From a bacterium (GTDB lineage Bacteria; Vulcanimicrobiota; Xenobia; Xenobiales; JADMJV01): a DNA stretch of 64,000 nucleotides. Under the pieces are notes generated by a model. The model did not search any database, was not told the DNA's origin, and saw only the letters and a list, made by a program, of their open reading frames with translations. The first letter of the stretch is position 1; each line of letters opens with the position of its first letter. A program made the translations under genes and the position numbers. Shown here in pieces: positions 603 to 10,443 of this stretch. The stretch lies in NCBI GenBank assembly GCA_030149525.1, contig JASBRJ010000143.1, positions 1 to 64,000 on the forward strand, in the 5' to 3' direction.

Positions 603-2243
603 TCATTCCCCTTCTTTTTCGACTGCGGCCGCGATATTCTCCCAAGCTCTCATCTGAGCAACTCTCCGGTTTTTCTCCAGCAGTTCTTTGACCCGGGAAA
701 CGAACTGTTCAAGAGCATCCACCCTGGTGGAAACGTGGAACACACTTTGATTTTCAAGATCGATTGAGGCTAGATTTACCAAAGGCGGCCCATTTACGTC
801 AGCCCAATCGACCAGGCTTAAGATCCCAGTCTTCTTATTGAAATCCCAACTGAGGCGAAAGAGGCTATCGATGACGCCTTTCCACTCTCGCGAGCCCGGG
901 TGTTTGTTGACGTAGGCCAGCAGGCTATCAAGCTTAGTTTGCTTCGTCCGGGTCTGCAGCTGGGCATCGAGATTTGCAAGGTCTTTGCGAATAGTCGCCT
1001 CTCGCTGCTCTAGCTCTTGTAGTTTGGCGCTGATACTGGCTCCCTGCTCTCCGACTCCGGCCATAATGAACTCAAGGAGATTGTCTTTTGATGCCTCTAT
1101 CGAGGTGAGAAGCGCTGTCAGCTCAGACCGTCTTAAGTCCATCTCTTCGGAGCCGAGCGAGTGATTCTCCAGACATCTCGTTTCATGAACATCGGAGACT
1201 ATCTGCAAGCCTTCCTTTCGCACAAGCTCGTCCAGGATGTCTGCCCTAGTGGCCTTCTGGCGGGTACAGGTCCCCTTCGCCCATCCTGGGCACTGGTAGT
1301 AAGGGTATTTGTAGCCCTTCCCTCCCCCAAAAGCTCCGACGACATCTGAGCCGCAAGCACTGCATGTCATCGTTCCTTTGGCGAGAAGGTAGGGATATAC
1401 GGCTCTTTTGTTTCGCTTCTTGTGGCGTCTCAGGATGCTCTGAACACTCTCCCACAACTCCTCGGAGACGAGAGCGTGACAGCTTCCCGTTACAAGCTCC
1501 TCTGGTTCGCGTCGGGTGCGTCTCCCTTTCGCGGACAAGGACGTTATTCCGTAGCGGAGGACACCTTTGTAGGTTGGATTTCCGAGCCGTTTCAGAAGAG
1601 TCTGGCTAGCCCATTTCTTTCCAGTTGCCGCGTGAATCCAGTCGACCAGCTGTTTCGACGAGAGCCCTGCAGCGTATTTTTCAAATACTTCCCTTACGAT
1701 TGCGGCTTCCTCGGCATGGGGAACAAGAATAGACTTTCCGTCCTCGCCTTCACCCCTCCGATATCCGAAGGGCGGCTTCCCTCCGGTCCATCGGCCGGCT
1801 CGTGTGGCAGCTCGTTGACCCTTGCGGGTCTCCTGGGCTAGGTTGAGGGAGTAGAACTCGGCTATGACCTCCATAAATCCCTCGACCATTCGCTCGTAGG
1901 GGCTCTCTCCCAACTTCTCAGTGAGACTGAAGATCTTGACGCCGTGGCGACGGAGTAAAGCCTTGTACATCACTGTCGTTTCGCGGTCTCTGCCGAACCG
2001 GTCTAGCTTGTGCAATACAAGCGTGTCGAACTTTCGGTCCTTGGCCGCCTTCACCATAGCCTGAAATTCGTCGGCTTGGTCTATGAGAGCGGACCTCGTC
2101 TCTGGCAAGAGGAATCTGTGAGTTATCTCCCACCCCTCCTTCTGGCAATGTCTCTCCATTTCAGACACCTGAGCGTCCAAGCTCAAGCTGTCTTGTAGCT
2201 TGGATGAATACCGAGCAAAGAGCGCGGCTCGTGTTCTTTTCAT
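603..2243 (-). CDS. Large serine recombinase with zinc ribbon
   Basis: A 546-residue site-specific recombinase of the large serine type, expected to cut and rejoin DNA through a 5'-phosphoserine link. The N-terminal resolvase domain has the ARYSSKLQ motif with catalytic Ser13 and Arg11, and the later LDRFGRD helix. A recombinase domain follows, then a Cys4 zinc ribbon (CSACG ... YYQCPGWAKGTC) near residues 290-330 and a coiled-coil-like C-terminal region. AGGAGGA precedes the ATG. It sits near the left of the window and reads outward, so it could be the integrase of a second element. A 12-bp inverted repeat lies just upstream of its ribosome binding site. Confidence 0.92.
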   Translation of the reverse strand: MKRTRAALFARYSSKLQDSLSLDAQVSEMERHCQKEGWEITHRFLLPETRSALIDQADEFQAMVKAAKDRKFDTLVLHKLDRFGRDRETTVMYKALLRRHGVKIFSLTEKLGESPYERMVEGFMEVIAEFYSLNLAQETRKGQRAATRAGRWTGGKPPFGYRRGEGEDGKSILVPHAEEAAIVREVFEKYAAGLSSKQLVDWIHAATGKKWASQTLLKRLGNPTYKGVLRYGITSLSAKGRRTRREPEELVTGSCHALVSEELWESVQSILRRHKKRNKRAVYPYLLAKGTMTCSACGSDVVGAFGGGKGYKYPYYQCPGWAKGTCTRQKATRADILDELVRKEGLQIVSDVHETRCLENHSLGSEEMDLRRSELTALLTSIEASKDNLLEFIMAGVGEQGASISAKLQELEQREATIRKDLANLDAQLQTRTKQTKLDSLLAYVNKHPGSREWKGVIDSLFRLSWDFNKKTGILSLVDWADVNGPPLVNLASIDLENQSVFHVSTRVDALEQFVSRVKELLEKNRRVAQMRAWENIAAAVEKEGE

Positions 2244-2314: not shown

Positions 2315-2659
2315 TTATACGCGAGCAGCAAGTAGGAATTGACCGGCGTATTCATCGGCTTCATCCTCTTGTGCTTCGGAGAGAGTGAGTCCGGCTTCGA
2401 GGTGGGACCGGAACAACCGGAACCTGCCCAGCAAAGACGCCAGGATGAAGGCCCTCTCTTCCTCGGAGAGCGACAGATTGACACCGACAACGCCTGTCCT
2501 TAGAGATAAGAATCCTTCACCCATTGAGGAGACAGGCAGCCCGCAGACCTTTAGTCCGAATCCCTCGATGATATTGACGAGGTGGGCGGCAGGGTTACCA
2601 CGACGGCTGCGGAGCAGCATCTCCGCGTCTCGCTTGCAAGTGATCTGGAGAGTCGTCAT
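2315..2659 (-). CDS. ImmA/IrrE-like protein lacking the HExxH zinc site
   Basis: A 114-residue protein with the ImmA/IrrE layout: a helical N-terminus, a strand region (GFLSLRTGVVGVNLSLSEEE), the helix that normally carries HExxH, and the distal EADEYAGQFLL helix (compare ExxANxFAAxLLMP). In active family members the helix reads F-T-L-A-H-E-L-G-H; here it reads FILASLLGRF (71-80), so both histidines and the glutamate are replaced by Ser75, Leu76 and Arg79. Active relatives cleave ImmR-type repressors of mobile elements. This one should not be a zinc protease and may be a binding or regulatory relic. Its ATG overlaps the stop of the upstream gene (ATGA). Confidence 0.6.
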   Translation of the reverse strand: MTTLQITCKRDAEMLLRSRRGNPAAHLVNIIEGFGLKVCGLPVSSMGEGFLSLRTGVVGVNLSLSEEERAFILASLLGRFRLFRSHLEAGLTLSEAQEDEADEYAGQFLLAARV

Positions 2660-2853
2660 TGTTTCGAGCCTCCAAAACTGTCACAGAGAGAGTTGAACCA
2701 CTTGACGATTTCGGCGGTGAAGTCTTTGACACTGGGGAAACGCGAGCGCTTCTCGCCAAGCTTCGCGTACTCTTCCTCTGTCAATGGCATCTGCAAGCAA
2801 AGAATCTTCTGCAACTCGCCATTGGCCTCGATAATGCAGGTCACTGTGATCAT
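2656..2853 (-). CDS. Small protein, unknown function
   Basis: A 65-residue protein (MITVTCIIEANGELQKILCLQMPLT...) with an N-terminal beta-prone part and a C-terminal helix (DFTAEIVKWFNSLC). No domain is recognised. GGGGAGG precedes the ATG and the gene overlaps the ImmA-like gene by four bases (ATGA), which supports translation and a shared transcript. It is the first gene of the minus-strand operon that starts beside the first structured RNA block and ends with the serine recombinase. Confidence 0.6.
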   Translation of the reverse strand: MITVTCIIEANGELQKILCLQMPLTEEEYAKLGEKRSRFPSVKDFTAEIVKWFNSLCDSFGGSKQ

Positions 2854-2947
2854 CGCGCACCTCCCCTCAATGCCCGCAGGCGAAGGTTCTTGGCCGCTCT
2901 GGCGTTACAAAGAGCAAAGCCTTTTGCAATTCTGCATGCTCGGCGAG

Positions 2948-3316
2948 TACGGTAGAATGGGAAGTAGATTGACCTCGGTCGGTCTGTTGTTTGGGTCCCA
3001 GCTTGCCTTCTACGGGCAGGGTGGGAGTGATTCTCAGGCAACAAGATACCTGAGGGGCGGTCATGTGTGTACTTTGACGGGTATGGCATGACTTAGCCTC
3101 TCTTTCTTTTCAGTTTTGACCGTTCTGGGTCCATTAGAAGAAAGGAAGCATAAGCCAGTGATGCAGGGGTTTGAGGCGCTTAAGGGAAGCCTATTCCTAC
3201 ACTGTGGCCTCGTTTTCGATCTTACCAGGGACTGAAACGGGGCCGCTTTTTTTGCGGTTCATTGGGACTTCTTGGAGCGGCGGAAAGGTCCTCTCTAGAC
3301 AACTTCAGGTCCGTTG
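2948..3316 (+). ncRNA. Candidate structured RNA, copy 1 of 2
   Basis: This gene-free block matches 9919-10277. It opens with a 43-nt segment (2948-2990) identical to 9919-9961. Paired elements on the plus strand: A 3004-3008/3014-3018; B 3033-3038/3049-3054; C 3059-3065/3087-3093; D 3102-3108/3138-3144; E 3206-3215/3235-3244; F 3243-3246/3254-3257. Against copy 2, stems C and E show compensatory double changes, and wobble pairs in A, C and E are valid only if the plus strand is the RNA. F overlaps E by two bases, so they may alternate. Two AGGTCC repeats lie near the 3' end. TAGAAT at 2953-2958 could be a -10 box, but no good -35 is seen. Confidence 0.55.
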
Positions 3317-6855: not shown

Positions 6856-7091
6856 AGATCCATCCCAAACCTTGCCCTCAGTTCTTGCGAAAGCTGAGTC
6901 CTCTCCAGTTCCAGCGCTCTTTCGTCGGCCGTCAGTTGGGCAAGGGCTCTGTCCATTATCTTGTCATCGCCGCTCTTTAACGAGAGCATGAACCGGTATT
7001 TCCTGCCTTTAAACTCATCTTCCGCTTGTTGATGAGCCAAGAGCCGCTCCCAGAGCTCAACCGGCAAGCCTGGCGGTTTTTCCGGTGTCAT
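6852..7091 (-). CDS. Small helical protein in resolvase operon
   Basis: A 79-residue, highly charged helical protein (LPVELWERLLAHQQAEDEFKGRKYRFMLSLKSGD... ALELERTQLSQELRARFGMDL) that may form a coiled coil. The start is placed at the ATG sharing its first base with the TAA of the recombinase (TAATG), which implies coupled translation; an upstream start would overlap the recombinase by 49 nt. It also overlaps the following gene by four bases. No family recognised. Confidence 0.6.
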   Translation of the reverse strand: MTPEKPPGLPVELWERLLAHQQAEDEFKGRKYRFMLSLKSGDDKIMDRALAQLTADERALELERTQLSQELRARFGMDL

Positions 7092-7762
7092 TACGCTTCC
7101 ATTCTTTTTACGTATCGCTGCACTGTACCGGGGTTCCATCGGCCACCGCGCTTGGTTTTATAGCCCTCTGATGTCAGTTCGTCGGCAATCGTCCGGTACG
7201 TCAACCCCGAGGATCTCAACTCTCGAATTCGAACGAGGATTGAGGTCTCTTGTTCGTTACGAATAAGCTGACCATCCTCCATATCGTAGCCCAGGGCTGG
7301 GCTACCAACATGCTCTCCTTGAGACTGCTTGTGACGAAGAGCGGCGGTAGTGCGCTCACCGATAGCTTCGCGCTCCCATTCACTGACGGAGGCAAGAACG
7401 TTCAGGACAAGACGACCGGCGGCCGTGCTCGTGTCTATCTTGTCAGCCACTGAAAGGAGGGAGAATTCGCTTCGAAAGTGGCTATCAAGCAGGGCGCCAA
7501 GGTCCTTCACTGACCTTGTCAGACGGTCGAGCTTTGCGACGAGGAGACCTTCAGCTTCTCCGCTATCAAGCATCGAGAGAGCCTGCTGAAGACCGTCACG
7601 ATCGAGACTCTTTGCGGAAGCACCGGCATCTTCAATGATTGCCACCAGGTCAAGGTCGAAGAGTTCCGAGTACTGCTGGAGCTTCTGGCGTTGTGCAGCG
7701 AGGGAAACACCTTCCTCAGCTTGGTCTTGTGTACTGACTCGGATATAGCCGACAACTTTCAT
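7091..7762 (-). CDS. Small serine recombinase (resolvase/invertase type)
   Basis: A 223-residue resolvase-family recombinase. The motif GYIRVSTQDQ contains catalytic Ser10 and Arg8; LVAKLDRLTRS and the long E-helix (LNVLASVSEWEREAIGERT) are present. The C-terminus carries a helix-turn-helix (GLTYRTIADELTSEGYKTKRGGRWNPGTVQRYV). The ATG at 7762 has AGGAGG upstream. It may resolve multimers, invert DNA or integrate a nested element. Two downstream genes overlap it and probably form one operon. Confidence 0.9.
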   Translation of the reverse strand: MKVVGYIRVSTQDQAEEGVSLAAQRQKLQQYSELFDLDLVAIIEDAGASAKSLDRDGLQQALSMLDSGEAEGLLVAKLDRLTRSVKDLGALLDSHFRSEFSLLSVADKIDTSTAAGRLVLNVLASVSEWEREAIGERTTAALRHKQSQGEHVGSPALGYDMEDGQLIRNEQETSILVRIRELRSSGLTYRTIADELTSEGYKTKRGGRWNPGTVQRYVKRMEA

Positions 7763-7919
7763 AGACGCCTCCTTCGATAGATACAGCATACCATAAAGTG
7801 ATATGCACTTCAATTCTTTGCCCATATTCTCTGAGGTCAATTGATTTGGGAAGAAACGGGCGAATGAGGGTACAAGTTGAATTTGTAGCCTTGGGCGGTG
7901 TTCGTCGTGAAAGTAAAGA

Positions 7920-8757: not shown

Positions 8758-9183
8758 CTAGTTATTTGTATCTGTCACCAACTCATTCCACTCTTCCAGT
8801 AAGGCCTCCAGTTCATCGAGACAAGCCCCCATAAGGCCATTCGAGAGATTGAGACTTACTAGGTCTAAGTCGCGCCCAGGTGAGCCGGTCTCGAGAAGGC
8901 GCATTACCTTGAAGACCTCCCTCATCGCGTCATCAATGGCGTGAAGGCGAAGAGTGCAGGGCTTCTCAAGGGCGATCATCACGCGGTTGAAGTCGTCACA
9001 CGAAAGATCGGGAGAAACGATATCGTGAACTCTTTCGTGGTTTTTAACGGCTGAAGAGAAACCCTCGAATCGATGGGGAAACCTCTGGACATCTTCCAGG
9101 TAGACCTCCTCCGGCGGTGGAGCCTGGTCATTCAGGATGTATCGGGCAGCAGTCACGGCTTGAGGTTCGTATCTAATACTCAT
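8758..9183 (-). CDS. Unknown helical protein
   Basis: A 141-residue acidic, helical protein (…DFNRVMIALEKPCTLRLHAIDDAMREVFKVMRLLE…LDELEALLEEWNELV). No domain, signal peptide or membrane segment is recognised. Its ATG overlaps the stop of the ImmA-like gene upstream (ATGA), and a strong terminator follows, so the two genes form a closed operon. Confidence 0.65.
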   Translation of the reverse strand: MSIRYEPQAVTAARYILNDQAPPPEEVYLEDVQRFPHRFEGFSSAVKNHERVHDIVSPDLSCDDFNRVMIALEKPCTLRLHAIDDAMREVFKVMRLLETGSPGRDLDLVSLNLSNGLMGACLDELEALLEEWNELVTDTNN

Positions 9184-9842
9184 CTCGAAAACCCCCTAAC
9201 AATATCGGCAAGGGTTGGTAGGGATGAACCTTGGTCCTGATGGTTCTGGCAGAACGCGGTCCCTGGGGTTCTGAATCCGCGACATTGCTTCCCGTCCGAC
9301 CTGTACCCTTTGCAGAGGGAGTTTCTGGCGTCACGCCGTCTGCCGTAGCCCTCGCCCTCCTCATTCTTTTTCTCAAACGCTGGACCGTTCCGAGTTATCG
9401 CCTCATTTGTACGCGAGTTGTCGGGATACAAGGAAAAGGACGGTTGAATGCTGCCTGCAGTGGAAGCGAGGTAGTTTGTAGCCCAGGCCTCAGCCTTGGC
9501 TCTCCACCTCTCTTCACAGTACAGTTCGGTGGTCACTTCGGAGAGAAATGCTCCCCGGGTGAAGTGCATACCGAGGGCTACTGTAAGGCACCAACGGAAG
9601 TTGGGCCAGGCTTGATTGCGAGCAACATCGATTGCTGGCTCTTCAGGGGTGTAGAGGTATCCCGTTCTCCATTCTTCGAGATTTGAGCGGGAGCAGTAGA
9701 GCGTGATGCCCTCGTTCTTGATGATAACTAGAAGCCTGTGGAGTTGCTGAAAGGCGAGTTTCGGGATTCGCTTTTCATCAAGACCACTCTCTGAGACTAA
9801 CTCGCTGAAGAGCGGATATGGATCTCGTTGAAACTCTCTCAT
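9180..9842 (-). CDS. ImmA/IrrE-like protein without zinc site, with C-terminal Cys/His motif
   Basis: A 220-residue protein. Residues ~30-130 follow the ImmA/IrrE pattern (GYLYTPEEPAIDVARN, then a helix, then KAEAWATNYLA with Glu118), but the helix that should read AHELGHH reads FRWCLTVALGMHF. Val88, Ala89 and Met92 replace His, Glu and His, so metal binding is lost. The C-terminus holds CKGYRSDGKQC...GTAFCQNH (about 177-202), a Cys3His pattern seen in small phage zinc modules. GGGAGG precedes the ATG. The gene starts beside the second structured RNA block, as the operon at 2315-2853 does beside the first. Confidence 0.55.
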   Translation of the reverse strand: MREFQRDPYPLFSELVSESGLDEKRIPKLAFQQLHRLLVIIKNEGITLYCSRSNLEEWRTGYLYTPEEPAIDVARNQAWPNFRWCLTVALGMHFTRGAFLSEVTTELYCEERWRAKAEAWATNYLASTAGSIQPSFSLYPDNSRTNEAITRNGPAFEKKNEEGEGYGRRRDARNSLCKGYRSDGKQCRGFRTPGTAFCQNHQDQGSSLPTLADIVRGFSR

Positions 9843-9918
9843 TCCACACCTCCCGCGCTCTGCGGCTGCTTGCCGTTACAATCAGCAAAGCCTTTTACAA
9901 TTCGGTCGGCTCGGCGGT

Positions 9919-10277
9919 TACGGTAGAATGGGAAGTAGATTGACCTCGGTCGGTCTGTTGTCTGTGCTCCATCTTGCCCTCTGCGGGCAGGGTGGAAGAA
10001 TGTCTCAGGCAATGCAAAGCCTGAGGGGTCGGACGTGGTGTTCATTGGTAGTGGGCTCACGTTCGTACCTCTCTTTCTATTCAGTTGATAATCCACTCGC
10101 AGACGAGGATAGATAGAAAGAGGGCAACGAAGGGGAACAGCCTCGCACAGGGGAAACTGTCTCTTACTGCTGGCCTCACTCTGTCCGTCCAAAGATAGGA
10201 GTGGGGCCACTTATTAGGTGGTCTTAGAAGTTTCTTTGGGCGAAGAAAAGGTCCTTTTGACATTCAAAGGTCCGAGC
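9919..10277 (+). ncRNA. Candidate structured RNA, copy 2 of 2
   Basis: Counterpart of 2948-3316. Stems: A 9975-9979/9985-9989; B 10004-10010/10019-10025; C 10031-10037/10058-10064; D 10071-10078/10115-10122; E 10172-10181/10199-10208; F 10207-10210/10218-10221. Stem E reads GGCCTCACTC/GAGTGGGGCC here and GGCCTCGTTT/AAACGGGGCC in copy 1: three compensatory pairs plus a kept U-G. Stem C differs at two compensatory pairs and two wobbles. Two AGGTCC repeats recur near the 3' end. No plus-strand gene follows, so the RNA need not be an mRNA leader. Confidence 0.55.
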
Positions 10278-10319
10278 AGCAACTCCACTTATTCGGAAAT
10301 TCCAGACAACTGGCAGAAA

Positions 10320-10348
10320 AGAAAAAAGCTGCACCAAAACGGCGCAGC
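10320..10348 (-). terminator. Terminator of the tape-measure operon
   Basis: GCTGCACC at 10328-10335 pairs with GGCGCAGC at 10341-10348, with one mismatch, around AAAAC. On the minus strand the stem is followed by TTTTTTC. It lies about 95 nt beyond the stop at 10444. The remaining gene-free bases (10278-10319 and 10349-10443) show nothing notable. Confidence 0.65.
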
Positions 10349-10443
10349 CAACAGCCTCGGAACTGTTACCTGATTCTAGCACATTTCACGAGCCCAGCGC
10401 ATTGAAGCGACCTAACGGACTTAAGAGCCTCACCGGTCGGCAG

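Follow-up and report, generated by a model that had tools for sequence, protein, structure and literature searches.

The stretch of DNA analysed here (the window, 64,000 nucleotides; contig C56 of an 8.27-Mb genome) carries two related blocks, copy 1 at 2948–3316 and copy 2 at 9919–10277, which raise the question of whether they encode a functional RNA and, if so, on which strand and to what end. As first described, both blocks open with the same 43 nucleotides (2948–2990 is identical to 9919–9961); the two copies are 79–83% identical over the first ~180 bases and diverge beyond. The preliminary description had counted two copies, which proved to be an undercount, because a blastn search of the window's own genome with copy 1 returned two extra copies, C53:432–673 and C10:25772–26014 (referred to below by their contigs, C53 and C10), and a covariance model comprising stems B, C and D (R1; 122 positions, 35 pairs) recovered exactly these four copies in that genome with E values of 3e-20 or better, the next match having an E value of 8.6.

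When R1 was run against 149 genomes of the phylum, only the same four copies were found. Zero Rfam 15 families, the GOLLD and ROOL models included, matched the window at the gathering threshold, and a permissive search of all four copies yielded as its best below-threshold matches unrelated families with E values of 0.24–5, in agreement with the earlier remark that no described class with these motifs was known. A blastn search of phages and plasmids gave zero relatives, as did a covariance search around recombinase relatives in IMG/VR, and every candidate fetched after pattern scans of IMG/VR and GTDB contigs, which required exact conserved bases and could be escaped by distant relatives, was rejected by R1.

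The stems of this region are conserved in all four copies, including the two that were not known at first. In four-copy alignments that had been padded to fit the structure, so that the two-sided counts from these four sequences lean towards structure, 97.1% of the cells of stems B, C and D were paired (alignment A5) and 9 pairs had changed on both sides, compared with a shuffled mean of 3.5, none of 500 shuffles reaching 9 and slid controls giving at most 2, and in stems E and F (alignment A9) 100% of the cells were paired with 4 two-sided changes, a value reached by 5 of 500 shuffles and not by slid controls (0–1). N letters were used in the alignment where hairpin C is shifted by one base in register and where copy 2 has a gap. 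Even so, the double changes in stems C and E can be read directly from the raw sequence; the three double substitutions and the conserved U-G pair reported for stem E were confirmed, and the compensatory changes reported for stem C amount to three two-sided changes across the four copies. Single-sequence folds also beat their shuffles (z-scores of -2.98, -5.87, -5.32 and -2.32 for the four copies). These data indicated that the stems are indeed kept through compensatory changes more often than expected by chance. Outside the four-copy core, a possible long-range closing helix was observed in copy 2 (GTTGTCTG/CAGACAAC, 9957–9964 with 10303–10310) and another in copy 1 (GTTGTTTGGG/CTCTAGACAAC, 2986–2995 with about 3292–3302).

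The blocks had been described as gene-free, but the minus strand of every copy contains a ribosome-binding site, a start codon and an open frame (Table 1). Conservation in the region peaks in the block CCTCTCTTTCTnTTCAGTT, which on the minus strand is AACTGAAnAGAAAGAGAGG, with two extra bases within it in the C10 copy, and in all four copies AACTGAAnAGAAAGAGAGG is followed after exactly 7 nt by a start codon (ATG in copy 1, C53 and C10, GTG in copy 2), whose spacing is unchanged in copy 2 despite the altered intervening bases and stem C. The distance from the start codon to a common TTGCC is 87 nt in 4 of 4 copies, and about nine indels fall in the other half of the alignment. Elsewhere in the genome the block had two imperfect matches, versus one in a backward control. 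The 5' arm of hairpin D, CTTTCTnTTC, which complements this ribosome-binding site, is nearly invariant, while its 3' arm varies.

The frames that begin at the shared start differ among the copies. Those of copies 1 and 2 are short leader ORFs that end in ATGA overlaps with the next gene, and serial overlaps continue downstream (2656/2659 and 9180/9183). The C53 frame extends for at least 168 aa and runs off the contig, and that of C10 encodes 303 aa with no separate leader, the two being fused. In C10 no start is better placed than the shared ATG, and a candidate start inside the gene, at codon 139, has a weaker ribosome-binding site; residues 31–160 are coding-like in composition, and the C-terminal part is homologous to ORF-A, located downstream of copy 2. 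Open frames as long as those of copies 1 and 2 have a chance of about 6% each, and a plus-strand frame is open there too; because frame length alone is not rare, the antisense case developed below rests jointly on the ribosome-binding site, its spacing, the start codon and the ATGA overlaps. Leader ORFs 1 and 2 differ at 21, 23 and 17 first, second and third codon positions, respectively, with no third-position bias. The leader peptide is thus unconserved although its frame is open, and the leaders are like those ORFs whose translation, rather than whose product, matters (PMC5304414). A conserved protein on either strand of copies 1 and 2 was rejected for want of codon-position bias.

Table 1. 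Positions in the window of the RNA copies, their predicted signals and hairpins, and the genes of the operons that they head.
Feature	Position	Copy 2 counterpart	Strand	Remarks
Putative RNA, copy 1	2964–3253		+	Likely extent; would start after the -10-like TAGAAT and stop at the U-run after stem E; predicted ends
Putative RNA, copy 2	9935–10221		+	Likely extent; 43-nt identity, fold z-score -5.87, four-copy covariation; predicted ends
-10-like TAGAAT	2953–2958	9924–9929	+	Within the 43-nt identical block
Hairpin A, AGATTGAC-CTCG-GTCGGTCT	2966–2985	9937–9956	+	Two adjacent U-G pairs, plus strand only; confined to copies 1 and 2
Hairpin B, CTCAGG..CCTGAG	3033–3054	10004–10025	+	Two pairs altered on both sides
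Hairpin C	3055–3099	10026–10070	+	3' arm antisense to the minus-strand start codon; helices 2 and 3 of the four-copy alignment
Hairpin D	3102–3144	10073–10120	+	Helices 4 and 5 of the four-copy alignment
Stem E, then GCTTTTTTT	3206–3253	10172–10208	+	11 pairs; terminator-like; poorer U-run in copy 2
Ribosome-binding site AACTGAAAAGAAAGAGAGG	3097–3115	10068–10086	-	7 nt ahead of the start codon
Leader ORF, copy 1	2850–3089		-	79 aa, ATG; ATGA overlap (2850–2853) with the next gene
65-aa ORF	2656–2853		-	Putatively coupled to leader ORF 1; ATGA overlap
Degenerate M78/ImmA-IrrE-like gene	2315–2659		-	Overlaps the 65-aa ORF; Pfam PF06114, E 4.4e-4, below the curated cut-off
Large serine recombinase	603–2243		-	Operon 1, downstream of copy 1
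Leader ORF, copy 2	9839–10060		-	73 aa, GTG; ATGA overlap (9839–9842) with the gene at 9842
220-aa gene	9180–9842		-	Putatively coupled to leader ORF 2; has a Cys/His motif and is locally similar to the M78 protein of the sister element C273
ORF-A	8758–9183		-	Sole homologue in the genome is the gene starting inside RNA copy C10
Small serine recombinase	7091–7840		-	Downstream of copy 2
Terminator-like hairpin	10327–10349		-	End of the tape-measure operon; conserved in C273

To which strand the structure belongs is crucial for its interpretation. In the interiors of helices C, D and E, all non-Watson-Crick cells are plus-strand G-U pairs and none is A-C (about seven independent events), although the G+T-rich plus strand favours G-U by composition alone, and RNAalifold scored the same alignments at -36.9 for the plus strand versus -30.0 for the minus strand, and at -22.7 versus -14.0. 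In contrast, dinucleotide-shuffle z-scores were nearly equal on the two strands (mean about -3.6 for minus and -3.4 for plus). The earlier statement that the wobble pairs fit only the plus strand was therefore too strong in its "only", but the wobbles and the consensus folding do favour that strand, and we consider it likely that the structure is formed on a plus-strand RNA. These observations bear on the possibility that no plus-strand RNA is made and that the minus-strand mRNA itself would fold into a cis-regulatory leader that masks or frees the ribosome-binding site between its stems D and C, in the manner of an attenuator, a riboswitch or a thermosensor. Such a leader would be in agreement with the position of the ribosome-binding site and start within stems D and C, with the location of each copy at the head of a gene or open frame of that strand, and with the equally good minus-strand z-scores. 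Nevertheless, the plus-strand G-U pairs, including the two adjacent ones of hairpin A, turn into A-C mismatches on the minus strand, the minus-strand consensus structure is weaker and breaks stem E, and both the 43-nt identical block and stem E with its U-run are left unexplained, so that we regard a minus-strand leader as unlikely.

The predicted ends of the plus-strand RNA are of unequal quality. The TAGAAT that would precede its start was not accompanied by a good -35 and was not listed by a consensus promoter scan, and a conserved plus-strand promoter was not seen in C53 or C10. At the other end, stem E is followed by GCTTTTTTT in copy 1, GCTTTTATT in C53 and C10, and ACTTATTAG in copy 2, and with this U-run it resembles an intrinsic plus-strand terminator; the terminator scan used does not admit a loop as large as that of stem E. 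The length of ~350 nt proposed for the structured RNA was revised, ~290 nt being likelier because the part shared by the four copies ends at stems E and F (~3261) and a terminator made of stem E and its U-run would place the end of the RNA near 3253. On the minus strand, the terminator-like hairpin upstream of copy 2 closes the tape-measure operon, and the copy 2 leader therefore begins a new minus-strand unit. Copies 1 and 2, but not the others, also have direct repeats GGACCT..AGGACCTTT spaced by about 20 nt on the minus strand (3281–3316 and 10246–10277), possibly an operator or promoter for the operon of that strand.

A multi-stem covarying structure with its own promoter-like and terminator-like signals, located in a prophage-type setting and lacking an Rfam match, might instead be a stand-alone large structured non-coding RNA that acts in trans or within an RNA complex, the minus-strand ribosome-binding site and ORF being fortuitous. 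GOLLD and ROOL are the obvious models, as structured phage and prophage RNAs of unknown function (PMC12286853), but these are about 660 to over 800 nt long, have Rfam models of their own that were not matched here, and have not been described as lying opposite a start site. Moreover, the most conserved stretch of the region is a ribosome-binding site at exact spacing from a conserved start in four copies, two of the ORFs end in ATGA overlaps, and in C10 the site provides the best-placed start of a coding-like gene. For these reasons a stand-alone RNA seems to us quite improbable, and we are just as doubtful about its more specific version, an unreported class of RNAs of ~290–350 nt that capsid-less, satellite-like elements would carry as accessory cargo and that would act in trans, with the minus-strand starts secondary. 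The preliminary interpretation as a functional RNA thus stands as regards a conserved structure, a likely plus strand and no Rfam family, but its free-standing, GOLLD- or ROOL-like framing is not the best fit. An antisense control module is preferred because in every copy the complementary strand holds a ribosome-binding site with its start codon and because the leader appears to be coupled to the next gene in both window copies.

We therefore favour, with a probability of about 0.5, the interpretation that the region is a portable antisense control cassette heading minus-strand operons of tRNA-integrated, satellite-like elements, which builds on the covarying stems, the four copies, the anatomy of ribosome-binding site, start codon and overlap, and the absence of the RNA from a sister element. 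The plus strand would give a folded RNA of ~290 nt with hairpins A to E, ending at stem E and its U-run, which would be perfectly complementary to the leader 5' region, the ribosome-binding site, the start codon and the following codons of the first minus-strand ORF. Pairing of this RNA would block leader translation, and translational coupling through ATGA would extend the block to the whole operon (M78/ImmA-like protein, ORF-A and serine recombinase). In C10 the main gene itself begins within the cassette. Several points weigh against the antisense model: the plus-strand promoter is weak by consensus (a good -10 only), the U-run of copy 2 is poor, the two strands are not told apart by single-sequence z-scores, the leader frame of C53 is cut by the contig end, and an antisense regulator of ~290 nt is long. 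Sok RNA, of the hok/Sok system, is far shorter.

Although the sequence family is new in the databases searched, its probable mode of action is already known. As summarised in PMC5304414 (after Blomberg 1992 and Wagner 1987), repA of plasmid R1 is coupled to a leader ORF whose translation is blocked by CopA, and it is the translation of the leader that matters and not its product. The REx-C control modules of Pseudomonas plasmids are portable and exchangeable and have varied leader ORFs, and in some exchangeable modules without a leader the main gene starts beside the stem-loops (PMC5304414). With CopA/CopT-tap-repA and REx-C the region described here would share stem-loops with an opposite-strand antisense RNA, a coupled leader ORF, an unconserved leader peptide and an exchangeable module, copies 1 and 2 looking like the leader-bearing form and C10 like the leaderless one. 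Unlike them, it is carried by tRNA-integrated elements, and its targets would be accessory operons rather than an adjacent replication gene, and its RNA is longer, has more stems and has no sequence or Rfam match. In hok/Sok, the antisense RNA faces the ribosome-binding site of the leader ORF mok, which precedes the controlled gene (PMC8309996), but a toxin-like gene was not recognised downstream here. The small hydrophobic toxin gene of a type I toxin-antitoxin system was not found: on inspection the 65-aa ORF does not encode a membrane peptide, and it lacks a Pfam match, and the gene putatively coupled to leader ORF 2 encodes 220 aa. If the antisense interpretation is correct, the control of a coupled leader ORF by antisense RNA, as seen in plasmids, also occurs on satellite-like elements integrated in the chromosome, in the form of a mobile cassette that heads different operons (M78/ImmA-like protein, serine recombinases), and would provide a concrete off-switch for elements of a little-studied bacterial lineage. 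It would also caution that calls of gene-free structured RNAs need a check of the opposite strand for start sites.

The claim that the RNA is carried by mobile elements was supported by the surroundings of the copies. The C10 element is complete (18.2 kb, from C10:22951 to about C10:41221), lies at a tRNA-Met and is flanked by 55-bp exact repeats (L010:952–1006 and L030:11167–11221); it carries a tyrosine integrase, a primase and a coiled-coil protein that is tape-measure-like by appearance alone, with no profile match. A capsid or terminase was not recognised among the proteins of this element that were searched, and it is possibly of satellite type. The window element has a tyrosine integrase adjoining a tRNA-Trp and a tape-measure protein, its other end lying beyond the contig. 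Its sister element C273 carries a tape-measure protein 90% identical, the same terminator region, a small serine recombinase 68% identical, a Prim-Pol/PriCT primase-helicase and an M78 protein with an intact HELGHH motif, but the R1 search of the genome detected no RNA in it, and the cassette is therefore accessory. A PADLOC defence search of the neighbours gave nothing convincing.

This distribution also bears on whether the hairpins might act as DNA, in a recombination site, a replication origin or a regulator-binding site, for example as the target of the nearby serine recombinases. Two direct copies do flank a serine recombinase, and the homology borders in C53 and C10 are sharp, but C10 has the block without a small serine recombinase, C273 has the recombinase without the block, and pairing that tolerates G-U is not expected of DNA, which makes a DNA-level site very improbable. 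A serine-recombinase site in particular was rejected, since RNA and recombinase each occur without the other. A plus-strand leader of a downstream gene was likewise rejected, the downstream genes on that strand being different or absent. The M78/ImmA-IrrE-like proteins of both RNA-headed operons (2315–2659 and 9180–9842) seem to be without HExxH. On contig C53 the RNA copy is preceded by several palindromic repeats like ACAAGTTCAACTTGTAGG (L031:150–310).
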